From positions 930,001-994,000 of the forward strand of contig NZ_OZ034994.1 of the NCBI RefSeq assembly GCF_964031045.1: 64,000 nucleotides of DNA, given 5' to 3'. A model generated the notes under the pieces. The model was not told the DNA's origin and searched no databases. It saw only the letters and a program-made list of their open reading frames with translations. Numbering within the stretch: the first letter of the stretch is position 1; each line of letters begins with the position of its first letter. Positions 9,644 through 25,401 of this stretch are shown piece by piece. Position numbers and translations under genes: made by a program. This DNA comes from Spiroplasma endosymbiont of Aspidapion aeneum (GTDB lineage Bacteria > Bacillota_I > Bacilli_A > Mycoplasmatales > Mycoplasmataceae).

Positions 9644-10019
9644 ATTTCACCTAATTCCTATTTTATTTAACAACTTGAAAAACGACTTAAATTATCAGTC
9701 TTTTTTTCTAAAATTGCTTAATAATAATTTTATTATCTACAAGTATTCTATAATAATTAATTAATAAGTCTGACATTATTAATATTTGATATTTTTTGGT
9801 ATAGAGTATTAATTTGCACATATTCTAAAAAAAAGATTAAAATGCAATTAATTTATTTTTATTACTATATTATTATATATTGTTATAATGTTATTTTCTT
9901 GTTAAAAATCATTTTTTATTATATTTTTTTTTCATTAAATTTCTTATGATATTAATAAGTCCTAAAATGTAAAATAAGTTAGAGAGAATGACTCTAAGTA
10001 GACCAATAATAAAAAAAAT
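9644..10019. other. Gene-free AT-rich stretch
   Basis: No coding frame is seen. A 6-bp inverted repeat (TTAGAG/CTCTAA, near 9977-9996) is the only local structure and is too small to interpret. It separates the S1-domain gene from the decayed transposase DNA. Confidence 0.4.
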
Positions 10020-11380
10020 AACTTTTCTTGAATTAGGGGTGTTATCCAATGTGTAACAGATATAGCGAAAATGTAAAAAAGATAAAGTTACAAAGATTTA
10101 AAAAAGGAAAAATGCTTGAAAAATACCCAATGAACTAAATACCGTTTCTGTCCACAATTAATATATATTTGAGAAAAAGGAGAAATTTTGTTATTCTAAA
10201 AGTATTGATAAGTGTAAAGGATGAATGATATGATAAAAAAATAAGAAAAGAATATATGACAACTGAATTGAAGACAAATCTAAAAGAAATTAAGAAGCTT
10301 AAGAAAAAATGCATTATTTCAAAACAAAATAAAAATGATTTGATTTAAAAATTACTTGTGCAAGGGAAATTGAAAGACTAAAAAGTCCATGTCTTCTTGC
10401 ACAACCGTGGTGATGATGAATTTGATGAAGATGATGATGAAGGATAAATAGAGGGTATTAAAACCAAAATATATAAACATTATGCTCGTTCTCAAATTTA
10501 TATATTTGAGGCAAGGTCAGCGTTGGTACAAATAAATTGATTAAATATTTTACCATCTTAAAAAATACTTTAAAAAATTTAAGGTAAAATTAAATCCTAA
10601 ATCCTAATTAATATTTATAAAAAATGTTTGGATATTCTTTCTATACAAAATTATGTTAATATCAGTTATTCGAAAACTCTAGACTATATTTTTAAATTTA
10701 ATGCAATAAACAAGAAATTTGTATCAGTTCTCAAGAAATTCATAATCAAATGCTACTTGAAAAAGGTAAAAATTTATCAATTAAAATGATAAGAAGAACT
10801 ACTAAAGAAAACCCAAATATTTTTAAAACAGTATCTAGACCCAAAAAACAAAATAATTTTCCACCTAATCAGAATCAGTAGATAGAGATGGCAACGTTAT
10901 GACTAATTATAAAACACCAAATGCGTTGGAGCCGATGGTACATATTTTAGATTCTATTTAAAAGGTAAAATAATATAATAAAAATATATGTGGCACCTTA
11001 ACGCAGTAAATTAATAAAAATATTATTGTGTGTTTAGTTCTCCAAAAAAAAATCTACTAATGTTTCAAAAATTATAAAAAAATTAATTATTCCATCAGAA
11101 AAGGATCTTCTTTGCAAAAAATATATATCTATGACTATATTGATAACTGAAACAATATATTATACTTAATGTCTAATAACAGTTTTAAAAATAACTCTCC
11201 AACACAAAGATTAAAAGATTGAGTTAATAAATGTTTATTAAATCTTCTGGTAAAATTTAGAGATATAAAATCTTTTTATAATTATTTATAAAAATTTTCT
11301 AAAAATTGAAATTTAATGAGGAAATAAATTATAATTTAAAAATAAAGGAAGTAGAATATTATTAGATTAACTTGTTAGTT
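10020..11380 (+). pseudogene. Decayed IS3-like insertion sequence (orfA/orfB remnants)
   Basis: Short plus-strand fragments in several frames recall an IS3-type transposase. At 10397-10447 a fragment reads LHNRGDDEFDEDDDEG and stops, like the end of an orfA; it is followed by KIYKHYARSQIYIFEA, like the start of an orfB. Further on come SIKMIRRTTKENPNIFKT, ADGTYF (first catalytic Asp of a DDE integrase core), MWHLNAV, NSPTQRLKDW and an IKSFYNYL tail ending in INYN-type residues. Frameshifts and stops are throughout, so it cannot be functional. The same pieces recur on the minus strand at 56.5-58.2 kb. The family assignment is by eye. Confidence 0.6.
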
Positions 11381-11860
11381 TGAGTCATTTTTTACTTATA
11401 ATTTTAATAAATATTTATTCTTTTTAAGAAATAAAACAAATAAAAGACTAAAATAACAAATATTTATTAAAAATAAATGTGACAAGTACTGATTTGCATA
11501 TTTTTCCCCAAATTTTAATAATGCTTATCTATATTAAGTCTAAATTCTATGATTGCTTTAAGGCAACTTAAGAATAATTAAATTTTTTAAAGGTGGATAA
11601 TAAGTGTTAGTAAAATTTAGGTTATATTTAAATATTGAATATTTTATTAAAAAAAAATAATCTAAAATACATGCAAATTGAGGTCTAAAAAATATATTTG
11701 CTATTTCTACAATTTTTATCACACATAAATGTTTTAAAATTTTTTAACACATTTTTTTATCATCTTTTACCTTTACAAAAAAATGGTAGTTTTAATCTGT
11801 TAGCATTATTAGTTTTGTTTTTTTCATTTTTATTTTTTTTATTTTTTTTCTTAAAAAAAT
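11381..11860. other. Gene-free stretch before the rRNA terminator
   Basis: Very AT-rich with long T and A runs from about 11800 on. No gene or repeat that I can support. Confidence 0.4.
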
Positions 11861-11890
11861 AAAAAAAATCCAATTGGATTTTTTTTAAAT
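11861..11890 (-). terminator. Terminator of the rRNA operon
   Basis: A perfect palindrome (13-bp arms at 11861-11873 and 11874-11886, core TCCAATTGGA) stands just after the 5S gene. On the minus strand it is followed by further T-rich sequence, fitting a rho-independent terminator. Confidence 0.8.
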
Positions 11891-11893
11891 AAA

Positions 11894-11997
11894 CTGGCAT
11901 CTCCCTATTTTCGCATTATACTATCGTTGGCACTATTGAGCTTAACTTCTGTGTTCGGTATGGGAACAGGTGTATCATCAACGCTATGGACACCAGA
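11894..11997 (-). rRNA. rrf: 5S ribosomal RNA
   Basis: About 104 nt. The minus strand contains the 5S core CCCATACCGAACACAGAAGT and AAGCTC, and the ends pair (CTGG at the 5' side with CCAG at the 3' side). It is the last gene of the operon, after 23S. Ends are accurate to a few bases. Confidence 0.95.
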
Positions 11998-12111
11998 TGA
12001 ATCTGATTCAAATAACTATTATACAAACGTTCGTCTGTAAAATCGTTATTTGAAAACTAAATATTCGATTACTCATATTTTTAATTATTATGCATTGTAA
12101 ATAGGCTTTTT

Positions 12112-15036
<2,925 letters not shown>

Positions 15037-15314
15037 TATTTGCAATTATAATAACTAATGAAATTTTAGTTTTCTATATTAATACTTTTAAAAGTTACTA
15101 ATTTACTTTTATAACAATAAATGTTACAAACGTAAGAAAAATAAAATGTCTATTTTCATCAAATATTTAGTTTTCAAAGAACGATTATTGTTTTTTTCAT
15201 ATTCCAGAAATCAACTGTTAGCGTTTCGCTAACTATCAATCTCTGATAACTTTATAGAACTCGAACATAGCTTTTTGTATATGTACAAAATACTGTTAAA
15301 TTTCTTTCTCCATA

Positions 15315-16839
<1,525 letters not shown>

Positions 16840-17484: not shown

Positions 17485-19131
17485 TTACAAATTTCAATCA
17501 ATTGTTGGTTCAGAACTTGAATTTGTTTTATCTTTAGATTCTATTATAGGGTCAGGTATTGTTGATGCATCATCTTGAATTGATATTGTTTCTGAATAAT
17601 AATCACCAAATGGCTTATTTTCTACAATATTAAATGTTGCACTATTATCATTATCATTATTTTGGATATCAATTATTGGTTCTGGAATATCTGAAACTTG
17701 ATTATTAATCTGTGATTCTGTTTTTGTATTTGCTACAAAGTAATTATCATCAGGTTTATTTAAAATATCTCTATTTCTTTTCTTAATTGCATCTCAAATA
17801 AAATCAGACTCTTCCATATTGTAACTTTCCTTATATTTTTTTGCTTTAGCTTCGCTATATATAGCTCTCCTACGTTCACCGCGGTTTAGGTTATTTTGAG
17901 CATTATCAAATGATGATTTTGTATATCTAACAACTTTAGATCCTAATCTTCTTGGTATAATTGTTTGGCTAGATGGATCTTTCTTTTCATAGGGCATATT
18001 ATAAAGGTCTTCAACACCAATTTTTTCTTCATCATAATTAGAATTAGATTGGTATTCATCACCTTCATTATAATCCTCATTTAATGTAACCCCTTTTGGT
18101 ATTTTCATTTCATATGTTTTATCTGTGTTTATATAATTTTTATCATCAGAACCATCATTTATTTCATTATATAGTCTAGTTACCTCTTCAACCATTTTTT
18201 TATTTTGTGCTTGTCAAGATGACATAGCCATAGAATTAGTGGAATCTCCCATATCTTTTTGAAGAGCTTCTTCATCAATTGATTCTAGGTTAAGGGAATC
18301 AAAACTGTCAGCTTCTACTATATTATTATCATTAAAATCTTGAAAATTATCATCTTCTTGTTGAACAACACCCGATACATTTCCTTTAATTGCGTCATCT
18401 TTACCAGATCCATGTTTACCGTTTCCAAGTGCGCTTATATCATCCCAATTAATATCTTTAGCTTTTGTAGAAACTATATGTTGCATGTTTCTTATTTTTA
18501 ATTGTAAATTTTCATCATTTTCATCAGGTGTAGACGTAAAATTGTCAAGATTATTATTCACAACTTTGTTAACTTGTTGTTCAATATCTGTATAAATTGG
18601 GTCCTCTATGTAAGATGGTTTTGATACTTCATCATCAATATCTTTAACATTGTATTGGTTTACATCTACTTCTTCATTTTTTGGTTGATTTTTTACTTTT
18701 TTTGTTTTATTTATTGGCGCTCTTCTGGTTTTTGATCCAGCATTATTGATAATAAGACCTATGATTCCTAAGCAAACAACACTTATAAAAGGAAATAAAA
18801 CATTTGTTAGTTGAGAAACTTTGGTTAAATTTCATACCAAGGCAAGAGAAGATATTAATGATATAAGAAAAATAAAAGTTATGTATGAAGAAAAATATAC
18901 TAATGCGTCAGCATTTCTTTTTCTTGATTTGCTCAAGGCAAGTTTAATTGTTGTGGATAAAACAGAAACGCCAAGCGTAGCATAAAATAAATAAGGAACT
19001 CACTGATAATCCAAAGACTTTCAAATCTCGATGTCTGTGATTTTTATACTATTCTTGTCGGTAATAAAAATCATACAGCACAATAGTAGTGTAATAATTA
19101 TTGAATATAACCCTTTTCAAAGATTTCTCAT
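17485..19131 (-). CDS. 548-aa membrane protein with a long acidic tail, unknown function
   Basis: The ATG at 19129-19131 has AGGGG upstream; TGA is read as Trp. Residues ~1-140 contain four hydrophobic helices (LYSIIITLLLCCMIFI, WVPYLFYATLGVSVL, SYITFIFLISLISSLALVW, NVLFPFISVVCLGIIGLII). They are followed by a basic turn (KTRRAPINKTKKVK). The remaining ~400 residues are Asp/Glu/Asn/Ser-rich and probably disordered and cytoplasmic, with one basic patch (RRLGSKVVRYTKSSF). No enzymatic motif is visible. The gene stands alone between the rRNA operon and a gene-poor stretch. Such membrane-anchored acidic proteins occur in mollicutes, some tied to the cytoskeleton, but that is only a guess here. 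Confidence 0.75.
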
Positions 19132-20912: not shown

Positions 20913-21254
20913 TTATCTATTTATTTGATAATTATATATATGCCTTCGTAAGTGGTTAAGACCAAATCTAAATTTTATTGAAGCAAGGAATTTATATGAA
21001 ATAATGTCAAATATTTTTTCCAAACCTTTAAATTTAGTATTTAAAAATTTAAACTTAAATTTTGTTGCATAAATTTCTACTTGTTTATAATTAGATAATT
21101 GCTTTAATATTTTTATATATTTGTGCTTTGATTCATCTACTTCAAGATAAATAGTTACAATATGGGCTAAAGGTTCCTCATTACATACGCTTATTGCAAG
21201 CTCATTACAGGTTAATGTTTTTATAAAAATTATGTTTATTAGCTCTTTATTCAT
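20913..21254 (-). CDS. 113-aa protein of unknown function
   Basis: Complete frame with AGAGG 8 nt before ATG 21252-21254. The N-terminal half has a mixed alpha/beta pattern (LINIIFIKTLTCNELAISV, HIVTIYLEVDES), and the C-terminal part is basic (FKFKFLNTKFKGLEK, FRFGLNHLRRH). No membrane helix or known motif. It stands alone between two gene-free gaps of about 270 bp upstream of nothing obvious, just behind the nuclease-helicase gene on the same strand. I do not recognise it. Confidence 0.6.
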   Translation of the reverse strand: MNKELINIIFIKTLTCNELAISVCNEEPLAHIVTIYLEVDESKHKYIKILKQLSNYKQVEIYATKFKFKFLNTKFKGLEKIFDIISYKFLASIKFRFGLNHLRRHIYNYQINR

Positions 21255-21526: not shown

Positions 21527-23416
21527 TTAAATTTTTCCTCGATTTTCAATTTTTTTAATAAATCAATCTTTTACCTTTGGATTTGTAAAATAAACATATG
21601 TCCCCTTGACACCGCGTGTAAGAAGAACATATAAAGAATTTCTTATTATTTGATCTGCCTTTATTAACGCGTTTTTATCATTTTTCTTAATTTTTGCAAA
21701 AAGGCCATAAAATGAAGTACTATCAGACTTTGGTTTTTTTTCTGGTCTAGTAACCAGTTTATCATCAACAATATCAAACATATCACCAATGATAACACCG
21801 CAATATTCAAATTCTAATCCTTGGCATGTAAATATTGAACCCACTTGTTCAAACGATGATGGTAAATATGCTCACTTTTTGTCATCTTTAAGGTTTCATT
21901 GTCATTTCTCACTCTCAATACATATATCATATTGATTGTGGTCATTTTTAGAAACTCAATTTCAATTGTAATTTGCTACAATTCGACAATTATTATTGGT
22001 ATTTAATTTATGTAAATCATTTTTAAAGACAGAAATATCGCTATAAACTTTAAAATCATAATCTATTTCTCTTGAGATATAATTATCCTTATTATAAAGT
22101 AATGATTCAATTCAATTTATATACTCATTTGACCCATTTGCTCTAAATTGTCCATCTAATTTATATTCATATATTTCATCTTTATGATAAATTTCATTCG
22201 CAAACTTTAAAATGTTATTTTTGCTACCAATATCATATGTGGTTACTAATTGATTATCATCAACAAAAAAAACAGCAAGATTTGAACTATTCATGATTTC
22301 TCTTATTTGATTATCACCAACATTTTTAAATATTCCAGATTTTCCACATAATCTATGAGCCTCATCTACTAACAAACAATTATACTCATTTAACTTTGAA
22401 CTAATAAAAGAGCCAGAACCACAAACAACCTTATTAATATATGCTTTAGTGATAGTTTTCTCAGAGTTTACCTTCGAAATCTTATCAATATTAAAATTTC
22501 TAATTGAAGAACTTTTAGCAATATATTTTGCAGATAAATTTTCACTCAAAAGTTTTCCTAACGCACTAATAAGAACGGCTGTTTTTCCGGTTCCTGGTTG
22601 TCCATTGACAATAATACATCTTTTTTTTAAATCTTTTTTACATTTTTTTGCAAAATATAGAATATTTTCATATATAATTTTTTGTGAATCAACTAATGAA
22701 AACTCATAATTGCTGGCAATAATGTCCCAAAGTTTATCTTGAATTGAGTTTTTATATGATAGTTCTGAGTTCTCAATTAATCTCATTAGGTTACCAGAAT
22801 CTCCATAATATAATGATTTATTAATGTATTCGACAAATTTTTGAACATCATATTTAAAAAATATAGGTGCTTGGTCTGTATATTTTTTGTAATGGTTATT
22901 TAACAGTGGCTCTTCATCATTATCATTTCTTATATAATTGTGTAAAAACGCACAAGGTTTTAATTTATAATTATTAACATTAAAAATTGTTTGTTCAATT
23001 ATATTTTTATATGTTAAAACTTGTTGAGATGGATGTGTAAGTTCTCGTTCTTCATTACCAACCCTAGATAATACAAGTCCATCTTTTTCAAAAACAGCTT
23101 TAGCAGATCTCCATTGCTTTAACTCAACAATTATAGCTGTTCTATTTTCATTTTGATCAACACCAGTGATAATCATATCAACACGTTTATTAGTTCCTGG
23201 AACTTTATATTCTAAATTAATGCCGACCGTATTATCAATGTTTGAATCTTGAAGAACAAGTGCCATTGATTTTAATGAGTTTTCCCAAGATATTCTTTCG
23301 CCTAGTGTTATCTTTTTACTTAACTTGTCATAAATATTTTTTTCTAAAATATCACCAATCTTATTATAAGTAACATCTTTAATAAAATTTTCTTTATCAT
23401 TTGTATATATAATCAT
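21527..23416 (-). CDS. Nuclease-helicase fusion: PD-(D/E)xK-like domain plus DUF2075-type superfamily 1 helicase
   Basis: A 629-aa cytoplasmic protein from ATG 23414-23416 (AGGGA upstream). The N-terminal ~160 residues look like a restriction-type nuclease: Glu69, Asp80 (KRVDMIITG) and the pair Glu98-x-Lys100 (IIVELKQW). Then comes an SF1-like ATPase of the DUF2075/Schlafen-like type: Walker A NGQPGTGKTAV (~271-281), Walker B CLLVDEAHRL (~347-356), FFVDDNQLV (~383-391), the QFR motif (~423), TCQGLEFEYCGVIIG and the C-terminal LLTRGVKGTYVYF. Such proteins are widespread in mobile and defence neighbourhoods, and a role in phage or plasmid restriction or DNA repair is inferred, not shown. Neighbours are unknown and decayed genes. 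Divergent from trpS. Confidence 0.75.
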
Positions 23417-23572: not shown

Positions 23573-24577
23573 ATGGAAAATAAAACAATTCTTTCTGGAA
23601 TAACAGCAACAGGAAAACTTACCATTGGTAATTACTTCGGAGCAATTAAGAATTTAGTAGAGTGTCAAGATAAATATAATTTATATGCATTTATCGCAAA
23701 TCTTCACGCAATTACCATTTCAATTGAAAGTAAAATCTTATCAGAAAACATATTTGAAATGTTAAAGATCTACAAGGCGTGTGGTTTGGATTTTAAAAAG
23801 TCAAATATATATTTACAAAGTGATATTAAGGCAATAGGAACTTTGAATTGAGTTTTAACGTGTCAAACAACAATTGGCGAATTATCAAGAATGACTCAAT
23901 ATAAAGACAAATCTCAAAATATAAAAGCAGGAAATAATACAAACTACATTCCAACAGGAATATTAACATATCCAATATTGATGGCATCTGATATATTATT
24001 ATTCTCTCCAGATATTGTTTCTGTTGGTGTTGACCAAAAACAACACGTGGAATTAACAAGAGATTTGGCAATAAGATTTAATAATAAATATACAACAACT
24101 TTTAAAATTCCAAAATTTGAAACTCCCAAAGTTGGGTCTAAAATATTTGATTTAATGGACCCAACAAAAAAGATGTCAAAATCAAGTGGTAATCAAAAAT
24201 CATACATTCAGATATTAGATAGTCCATCTATTATTAGAAAGAAAATATCGAGCGCAATAACAGATAGTGAAAATATTGTAAAATACGATCCAAATTTAAA
24301 ACCCGGGGTTAGTAATTTAATAACAATATATGCTTCAGCCAAAGATATCTCCATAAGAGAAGCTGAAAATTTACTAAGGAATAAAAATTATAAAGAATTT
24401 AAGGACGCGGTTAGTGATTCACTAATAAATATTCTGACACCAATTCAAGAACGTTATAAAGATATTGATCTGGATGATATAAAAAATGACTTAGAAAACA
24501 ATGCTAAAAAATTAAATAAATTAGCTAATAACAATCTTGATATTATTCTTAAGAAAACTGGTATAAATATTTTTTAA
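23573..24577 (+). CDS. trpS: Tryptophanyl-tRNA synthetase
   Basis: The 334-aa class I synthetase charges tRNA-Trp. Seen: TATGKLTIGNYFGAI (HIGH-like motif), the helix GVDQKQHVELTRDLAIRFN, and MSKSSGNQKS (KMSKS). The length is that of bacterial TrpRS. A TGA inside the gene (codon in GTLNWVLTCQTTIGELSRM) encodes Trp, so the enzyme itself needs UGA decoding. GGGGG lies 5 nt before ATG 23573. It is one of few plus-strand genes and converges with nadK, only 17 bp apart. Confidence 0.97.
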
Positions 24578-24594
24578 TAATAAGTTATACTAAT

Positions 24595-25401
24595 TTAATA
24601 ATTTCTTTTTTTTGTAAAAATTGATGATAGTGTTTTAACCTCATTATTATTTTTATTTGTTTGCAAACAACAAACCTTTGCCTTTTTATCTGAAACTCTT
24701 ATTTTTATAATCGATTCTTTTGAATCGACAAAATTTGCATCCAAAACTATGCTTAGATGTTCTTGTGGGTCTAATTTTATTTCAACTTCATTATTTTTTG
24801 ATAATATTAGACTAGACCCCAGAGAACGATAATTTATTGTTGAAACTGGAAAATATTCATTATATTGTCAAATACCATTATTTTTGGGAAGGATTATGCT
24901 CCCACCAGATGATCTCATAAAGCCACCGCTACCAGTTGAGGTTGAAAATACAATTCCTGTGCCTTGAAATCTTTGTAGTAATGTTCCATCAATTGAAATA
25001 TCAATAAACGCTGGGTGAACAGAATTATATACCTTAATCTCATTTACAACATAATCAATTTTTTTAGAGGCAACATATTCCAATTCTAATAACTCTATAT
25101 CAATTATTAAGTACTCTTCATTTAACAATAGATTTGATATTTTTTTAACATCTTCACTTGTATTATTATATGTATAATATCCAACACCACCGGACTTAAT
25201 AGGAATAATCTTAACACTTTCAATAATATTTTTGTATTTTCTAAATGTTTTTAAAAAACTTCCATCTCCACCTAAGGAAAAAACAAAATCTGGTGACTGT
25301 TCATCCTCAATTCAATTTAACTTATCTAATTGTTTTAAGAGTTCTATCTTGAGTAATTTTGTAAGTTCATAATCATTACTAATTATAAAATATTTCTTCA
25401 T
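24595..25401 (-). CDS. nadK: NAD kinase
   Basis: The 268-aa product phosphorylates NAD to NADP. The phosphate-donor motif SLGGDGSFLKTFRK (GGDG) is near residue 45, and the second signature GTGIVFSTSTGSGGFMRSSGG is shortened here to FSTSTGSGGFMRSSGG (family STPTGSTAY). VHPAFIDISIDGTLLQRF is the usual beta region before it. The NADP product links to GapN and the ferredoxin in this window. It is 11 bp downstream of the ABC exporter gene on the same strand, and convergent with trpS. Confidence 0.9.

Follow-up and report, generated by a model that had tools for sequence, protein, structure and literature searches.

The window, i.e., the whole 64,000-nucleotide stretch of DNA analysed here (positions 930001-994000 of a single-contig genome of 1.21 Mb, the sole representative of its genus among the genomes compared), carries an accessory gene for a single protein in which a predicted PD-(D/E)xK nuclease is joined to an SF1 helicase, both with intact active sites. 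With moderate confidence, this protein is best explained as a nuclease-helicase that acts alone, whose gene has spread horizontally, and that attacks DNA invading the cell or replicating aberrantly (phage or plasmid). The features referred to below are the following.

21527..23416, minus strand: nuclease-helicase gene, full-length type, SLFN-g3/DUF2075 family (629 aa, genetic code 4).
22757..23416, minus strand: predicted N-terminal PD-(D/E)xK nuclease domain, about residues 1-220 (AlphaFold2 model and VIA-align).
23021..23179, minus strand: codons of the putative catalytic motif D80 ... E98-x-K100 ... Q132 (invariant in three alignments, A1, A2, and A5).
21527..22699, minus strand: C-terminal SF1 helicase domain, residues 240-629 (PF09848 and fold matches).
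22580..22603, minus strand: Walker A, GQPGTGKT, residues 272-279 (G272, G275, T276, G277, and K278 invariant in 32 sequences).
22355..22366, minus strand: Walker B / motif II, DEAH, residues 351-354 (D351 and E352 invariant in 32 sequences).
23573..24577, plus strand: trpS, a core gene divergent from the nuclease-helicase; context, outside the system.
20913..21254, minus strand: 113-aa ORF just downstream on the same strand; orphan, not a MazG; context.
11892-16835, minus strand: complete 5S-23S-16S rRNA operon.

The coordinates given for the open reading frame in the preliminary description of this DNA are exact; the frame lies on the minus strand and requires code 4, with 7 TGA codons read as Trp. 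According to an alignment of 32 full-length sequences (the window protein and 31 relatives from its bacterial family and phylum, with 35-44% identity), R78, D80, E98-L-K100-Q101-W102, P129, Q132, and Y136 are invariant. A second, independent set of 28 sequences, most of them taken from other phyla or from viral contigs, has the same invariant nuclease residues, including D80, E98, K100, and Q132. The Asp80, Glu98, and Lys100 pattern pointed out earlier is therefore present throughout both sets, and a chance D...ExK pattern is ruled out by its invariance across diverged homologues. Judging by sequence, these residues represent the D...ExK...Q signature of the PD-(D/E)xK superfamily, motif-IV Q included.

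In the AlphaFold2 model of the N-terminal part (residues 1-229, pLDDT 87.5), the core follows the alpha-beta-beta-beta-alpha-beta order (helix 38-55, strands 65-69, 81-86, and 92-100, helix 129-144, and strand 150-158), with D80 by the second strand, E98 and K100 on the third, and Q132 on the next helix. Regarding fold comparison of this domain, nothing reaches an E-value of 0.001 in Foldseek. The VIA-align matches are almost all PD-(D/E)xK nucleases, each of them weak, with Z of 4-8 (below 8), and the list comprises VC1899, Can2/Card1/Cdn1, Upx, Kpn2I, EndoMS, Shedu, HamA, and Cap4. The PD-(D/E)xK assignment, which had been suggested from the residue pattern and agrees with both the modelled core order and the nuclease matches, can be called firm as a model-based prediction, resting on topology and the invariant motif rather than on high Z.

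As for the helicase part, PF09848 (SLFN-g3/DUF2075) matches residues 265-611 with 258 bits (E 2.1e-76, curated cut-off 24 bits) and is covered at positions 1-353 of 354. This full-length profile match, far above the cut-off, places the protein in the SLFN-g3 helicase family. Together with the Walker motifs, Q423-F-R425, Q532-G-L-E535, and R601 are also invariant in the 32 sequences, which makes the NTPase motif set complete and bears out the DUF2075-type core with all NTPase motifs proposed previously. The AlphaFold2 model of the whole protein (pLDDT 86.6, pTM 0.88) ranks UvrD first in VIA-align (Z about 21), human SLFN11 and SLFN14 reach Z of about 18-19, and its Foldseek matches include RecD2, RecBCD, and Dna2.

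These fold matches favour a different explanation, namely an accessory enzyme comparable to AddAB, RecBCD, or Dna2 that repairs DNA or restarts replication and serves the host in DNA damage, not against invaders. In the same direction, three relatives (L068, L074, and L098) end in a LexA/UmuD-type S24 peptidase domain with conserved Ser and Lys, a DNA-damage-linked switch; their sequences hint at autocleavage. The window copy has no S24 fusion. Given the distribution described below, the repair explanation appears unlikely.

Concerning annotation resources, no NCBIfam equivalog matches the protein, and PDB sequence searches returned no solved structure truly related to it. PDC-S41 is its sole PADLOC match and a partial one (43.7 bits in three stretches, the best being 443-628 of 657), while one neighbour protein scores 9.7e-247. 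PDC-S41 was thus rejected as a description of the window protein, and no PADLOC defence model fits it well.

The gene is found only in part of the related genomes. Within its bacterial family, 16 of the 60 genomes have a match and 44 have none; besides the window copy, 9 are full length. The rest belong to a shorter related lineage or are fragments, and G005, G048, and G049 keep broken or incomplete copies. Phylum-wide, 60 of 392 genomes carry it. The nuclease-helicase adjoins trpS in none of the 29 relatives examined, although trpS is present in 60/60 family genomes, and the 9 full-length family relatives have no flanking gene order in common, neither among themselves nor with the window, except that a PLD/ResIII helicase adjoins two of them. 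Because its distribution is patchy and non-syntenic, the gene is accessory, as had been supposed, and a housekeeping gene is ruled out. Both findings that the preliminary description had named as counting against its proposal, a non-nuclease fold and universal synteny, were looked for, and neither was encountered. The repair explanation suffers from the same pattern, since such enzymes are normally kept vertically, and also from the restriction-like genes that adjoin relatives.

Among the neighbours of relatives in the window's own family are PLD-nuclease/ResIII helicases (G044 and G046), HerA (G040), a protein with a Z1 domain (G015), and a protein related to the latter (G050). Elsewhere, the nearest neighbours match 198 PADLOC models (106 proteins) versus 27 for genes further out (71 proteins); this contrast counts models, of which one protein can match many, so it overstates the enrichment and represents a trend, not a rate.

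A second, shorter lineage of about 550 aa with the same ELKQ nuclease motif occurs in family genomes (L017, L020, L021, L022, and L024). Three of its copies have flanks in common, among them a PfkB kinase; one copy, L021, has lost its Walker A. A relative of the helicase half (L025, 997-2703) has an N-terminus that by eye resembles a GIY-YIG nuclease instead of PD-(D/E)xK.

Outside the phylum, homologues occur in proteobacteria, bacteroidetes, verrucomicrobia, spirochaetes, Saccharibacteria, actinobacteria, and archaea; they were found with an alignment as the query, and a single-protein query of genome contigs matched nothing. The tree interleaves phyla, for example Methanobrevibacter with Solobacterium and a Microcystis phage with Mucilaginibacter, a pattern that horizontal spread would produce. 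In this tree the window's family, with its 10 copies, does not form a group, yet a single clade stands in the AU test (p 0.133), and the claim of separate acquisitions was dropped for this reason.

Full-length homologues (at least 80% coverage) are also present in the Microcystis phage, three viral contigs, and 19 plasmids. These occurrences would suit a gene that mobile elements (phage, plasmid, or satellite) use for their own replication or for inter-element competition and that was left in the chromosome. Most copies, however, sit on ordinary chromosomal contigs, defence systems likewise ride on such elements, and the window copy, flanked by trpS/NAD kinase and rRNA, has no recognised integrase, replication gene, or further gene of such an element next to it. 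A mobile-element function is thus rather improbable.

The surroundings of the window copy have two distinct sides. One is made up of trpS and NAD kinase, the other of two orphan ORFs, non-coding DNA, and the rRNA operon. In 23 of the 29 relatives examined NAD kinase is the head-to-head partner of trpS; in the window this place is taken by the nuclease-helicase, with NAD kinase at the opposite end of trpS (23573-25401), and the altered order suggests that DNA was inverted or inserted locally where the nuclease-helicase now lies. Between the rRNA operon and the nuclease-helicase there are the 113-aa ORF, a 548-aa ORF, and ~1.8 kb without a long ORF. The 113-aa ORF is possibly no real gene: family searches gave no significant match, and among 59 relatives it has a single weak one (E 0.007). 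The 548-aa protein (17485-19131, minus strand) has hydrophobic N-terminal segments and no family match; in the 59 family genomes searched it has a single, weak match. The earlier picture of gene-poor, decayed surroundings therefore holds for the two orphan ORFs and the ~1.8 kb, but not for the rRNA operon, which forms the GC-rich part of the supposedly gene-poor stretch, or for the trpS/NAD kinase side. Decayed defence genes at 9-21.5 kb of the window were considered and dropped, as translated fragments of this region gave just two weak matches to neighbours of relatives.

The window copy stands on a long branch (1.32) and may for this reason be drifting. Taken with the broken copies in relatives and 2.3 kb of poorly coding DNA downstream, this could indicate a functionless relic that is being lost. 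The 629-aa frame is intact, however, and all invariant catalytic and NTPase residues are kept at only 35-44% identity, which makes a relic highly improbable.

What is new in this analysis, besides the S24 fusions of three relatives, is a MazG-like gene adjoining the nuclease-helicase in relatives. A DCTPP1/MazG-like dNTP pyrophosphatase gene directly adjoins it in 40 of 61 relatives outside the window's family; the 61 are the non-family relatives in the tree set, two of which (L055 and L082) are identical, and 40 is a lower bound because some flanks are short. The gene is always on the same strand, lies upstream in about four fifths, and, by ORF ends, mostly overlaps the nuclease-helicase or lies within a few bases of it. 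The partner is small (mostly 104-141 aa) and belongs to PF12643/PF03819. According to profile comparison with solved structures, its closest matches are a bacterial pyrophosphatase and RS21-C6/dCTP pyrophosphatase 1 (DCTPP1) (7.5e-31), and it keeps E36, E39, E59, and D62 (E-E-E-D), the expected metal ligands. In many relatives it probably hydrolyses dCTP or other dNTPs, which would starve or edit phage replication. One such pair, in L084, is adjoined by the gene of a 724-aa protein (9915-12086) that contains a dCMP/cytidine deaminase domain and may be a further defence gene acting by nucleotide depletion.

Among the 10 family copies only one (G015) has the partner. MazG has no match in the window or anywhere in its genome, and the search for a partner in or near the window thus gave none, the 113-aa neighbour not being a MazG. 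The pairing is one-sided: a helicase of the nuclease-helicase family is nearby in 3 of 67 MazG loci of the partner type in viral contigs, which rules out MazG as a helicase-specific enzyme. No description of the nuclease-helicase/MazG pair was found in the literature searched, whose coverage leaves out most subscription journals, and the same partial literature contained nothing relevant on a defence role of DUF2075, of Schlafen group 3, or of MazG combined with a helicase.

The favoured explanation, a nuclease-helicase directed against invading DNA, draws on the patchy distribution and mobility of the gene, its presence on plasmids and in a phage, and the restriction-like genes next to relatives. 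Against it count the window copy's own neighbours (trpS, NAD kinase, two orphan ORFs, and rRNA), which are not defence genes, as well as the lack of a well-fitting PADLOC model, the N-terminal fold Z below 8, and the long branch. DNA as the substrate, the trigger, and the benefit of defence are inferred. By analogy with Nhi, Hna, and HamAB, the SF1 motor would engage ssDNA or forks that a replicating phage or plasmid exposes, its movement, driven by ATP, would position or release the N-terminal PD-(D/E)xK nuclease, and the latter would nick or degrade the bound DNA. The window copy would work without a dNTP pyrophosphatase partner.

A broader and more speculative proposal, which we hold only tentatively, is an undescribed immune system in which the nuclease-helicase and a co-transcribed DCTPP1-like pyrophosphatase jointly cut DNA and empty or clean the dNTP pool, in some cases under a LexA-like autoprotease switch; the mollicute copy would then be a reduced one-gene form. 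Such a pairing would bring DNA cutting and dNTP depletion, both known as antiviral strategies, together in a single operon, and the nucleotide-pool enzyme accompanies two thirds of the sampled relatives outside the window's family. In mollicutes, whose genomes are tiny and in which few defences have been recognised, a mobile system that destroys DNA with a single gene would, if real, matter by explaining part of the resistance of these bacteria to phages and plasmids. In addition, a domain annotated as of unknown function across bacteria and archaea gains a testable role through its intact predicted nuclease.

In comparison with known systems, DCTPP1/RS21-C6 resembles the partner of relatives by profile and by the retained E-E-E-D ligands; the difference is that the partner gene directly adjoins the nuclease-helicase in relatives, and it is absent in the window. 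The animal Schlafens SLFN11 and SLFN14 have a helicase half of the same type, according to both VIA-align (Z 18-19) and Pfam (SLFN-g3). Their nuclease core, however, has a fold different from PD-(D/E)xK, to which the nuclease half of the window protein is assigned. The helicase of Hna belongs to SF2, versus SF1/SLFN-g3 in the window protein, and we know of no tie of Nhi to a MazG-like partner.

The earlier statement that single-protein nuclease-helicases act as antiphage systems agrees with published descriptions of Nhi and Hna (PMC12904381, PMC13381803). Nhi from Staphylococcus epidermidis (PMC12904381, PMC10732053) likewise combines nuclease and helicase in one protein, nicks and unwinds DNA, and acts alone against phage; its comparison with the window protein is by description. 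PADLOC gave no match named Nhi for the window protein, and the PADLOC library may have no Nhi model. Hna, also a single protein with helicase and nuclease, has the best-worked mechanism, being an auto-inhibited dimer with ssDNA exonuclease activity that is woken by phage SSB (PMC13381803); neither a sequence nor a fold match to it arose for the window protein in the searches run. As for Hachiman HamAB, its helicase senses aberrant DNA and controls the nuclease (PMC12278908). The HamA nuclease fold appears related to the N-terminal domain of the window protein (VIA-align Z 4.5), but HamAB consists of two proteins, whereas the window protein is one chain with a different helicase. Nhi, Hna, and HamAB all attack DNA on sensing phage SSB or aberrant DNA (PMC12904381, PMC10732053, PMC13381803, PMC12278908).
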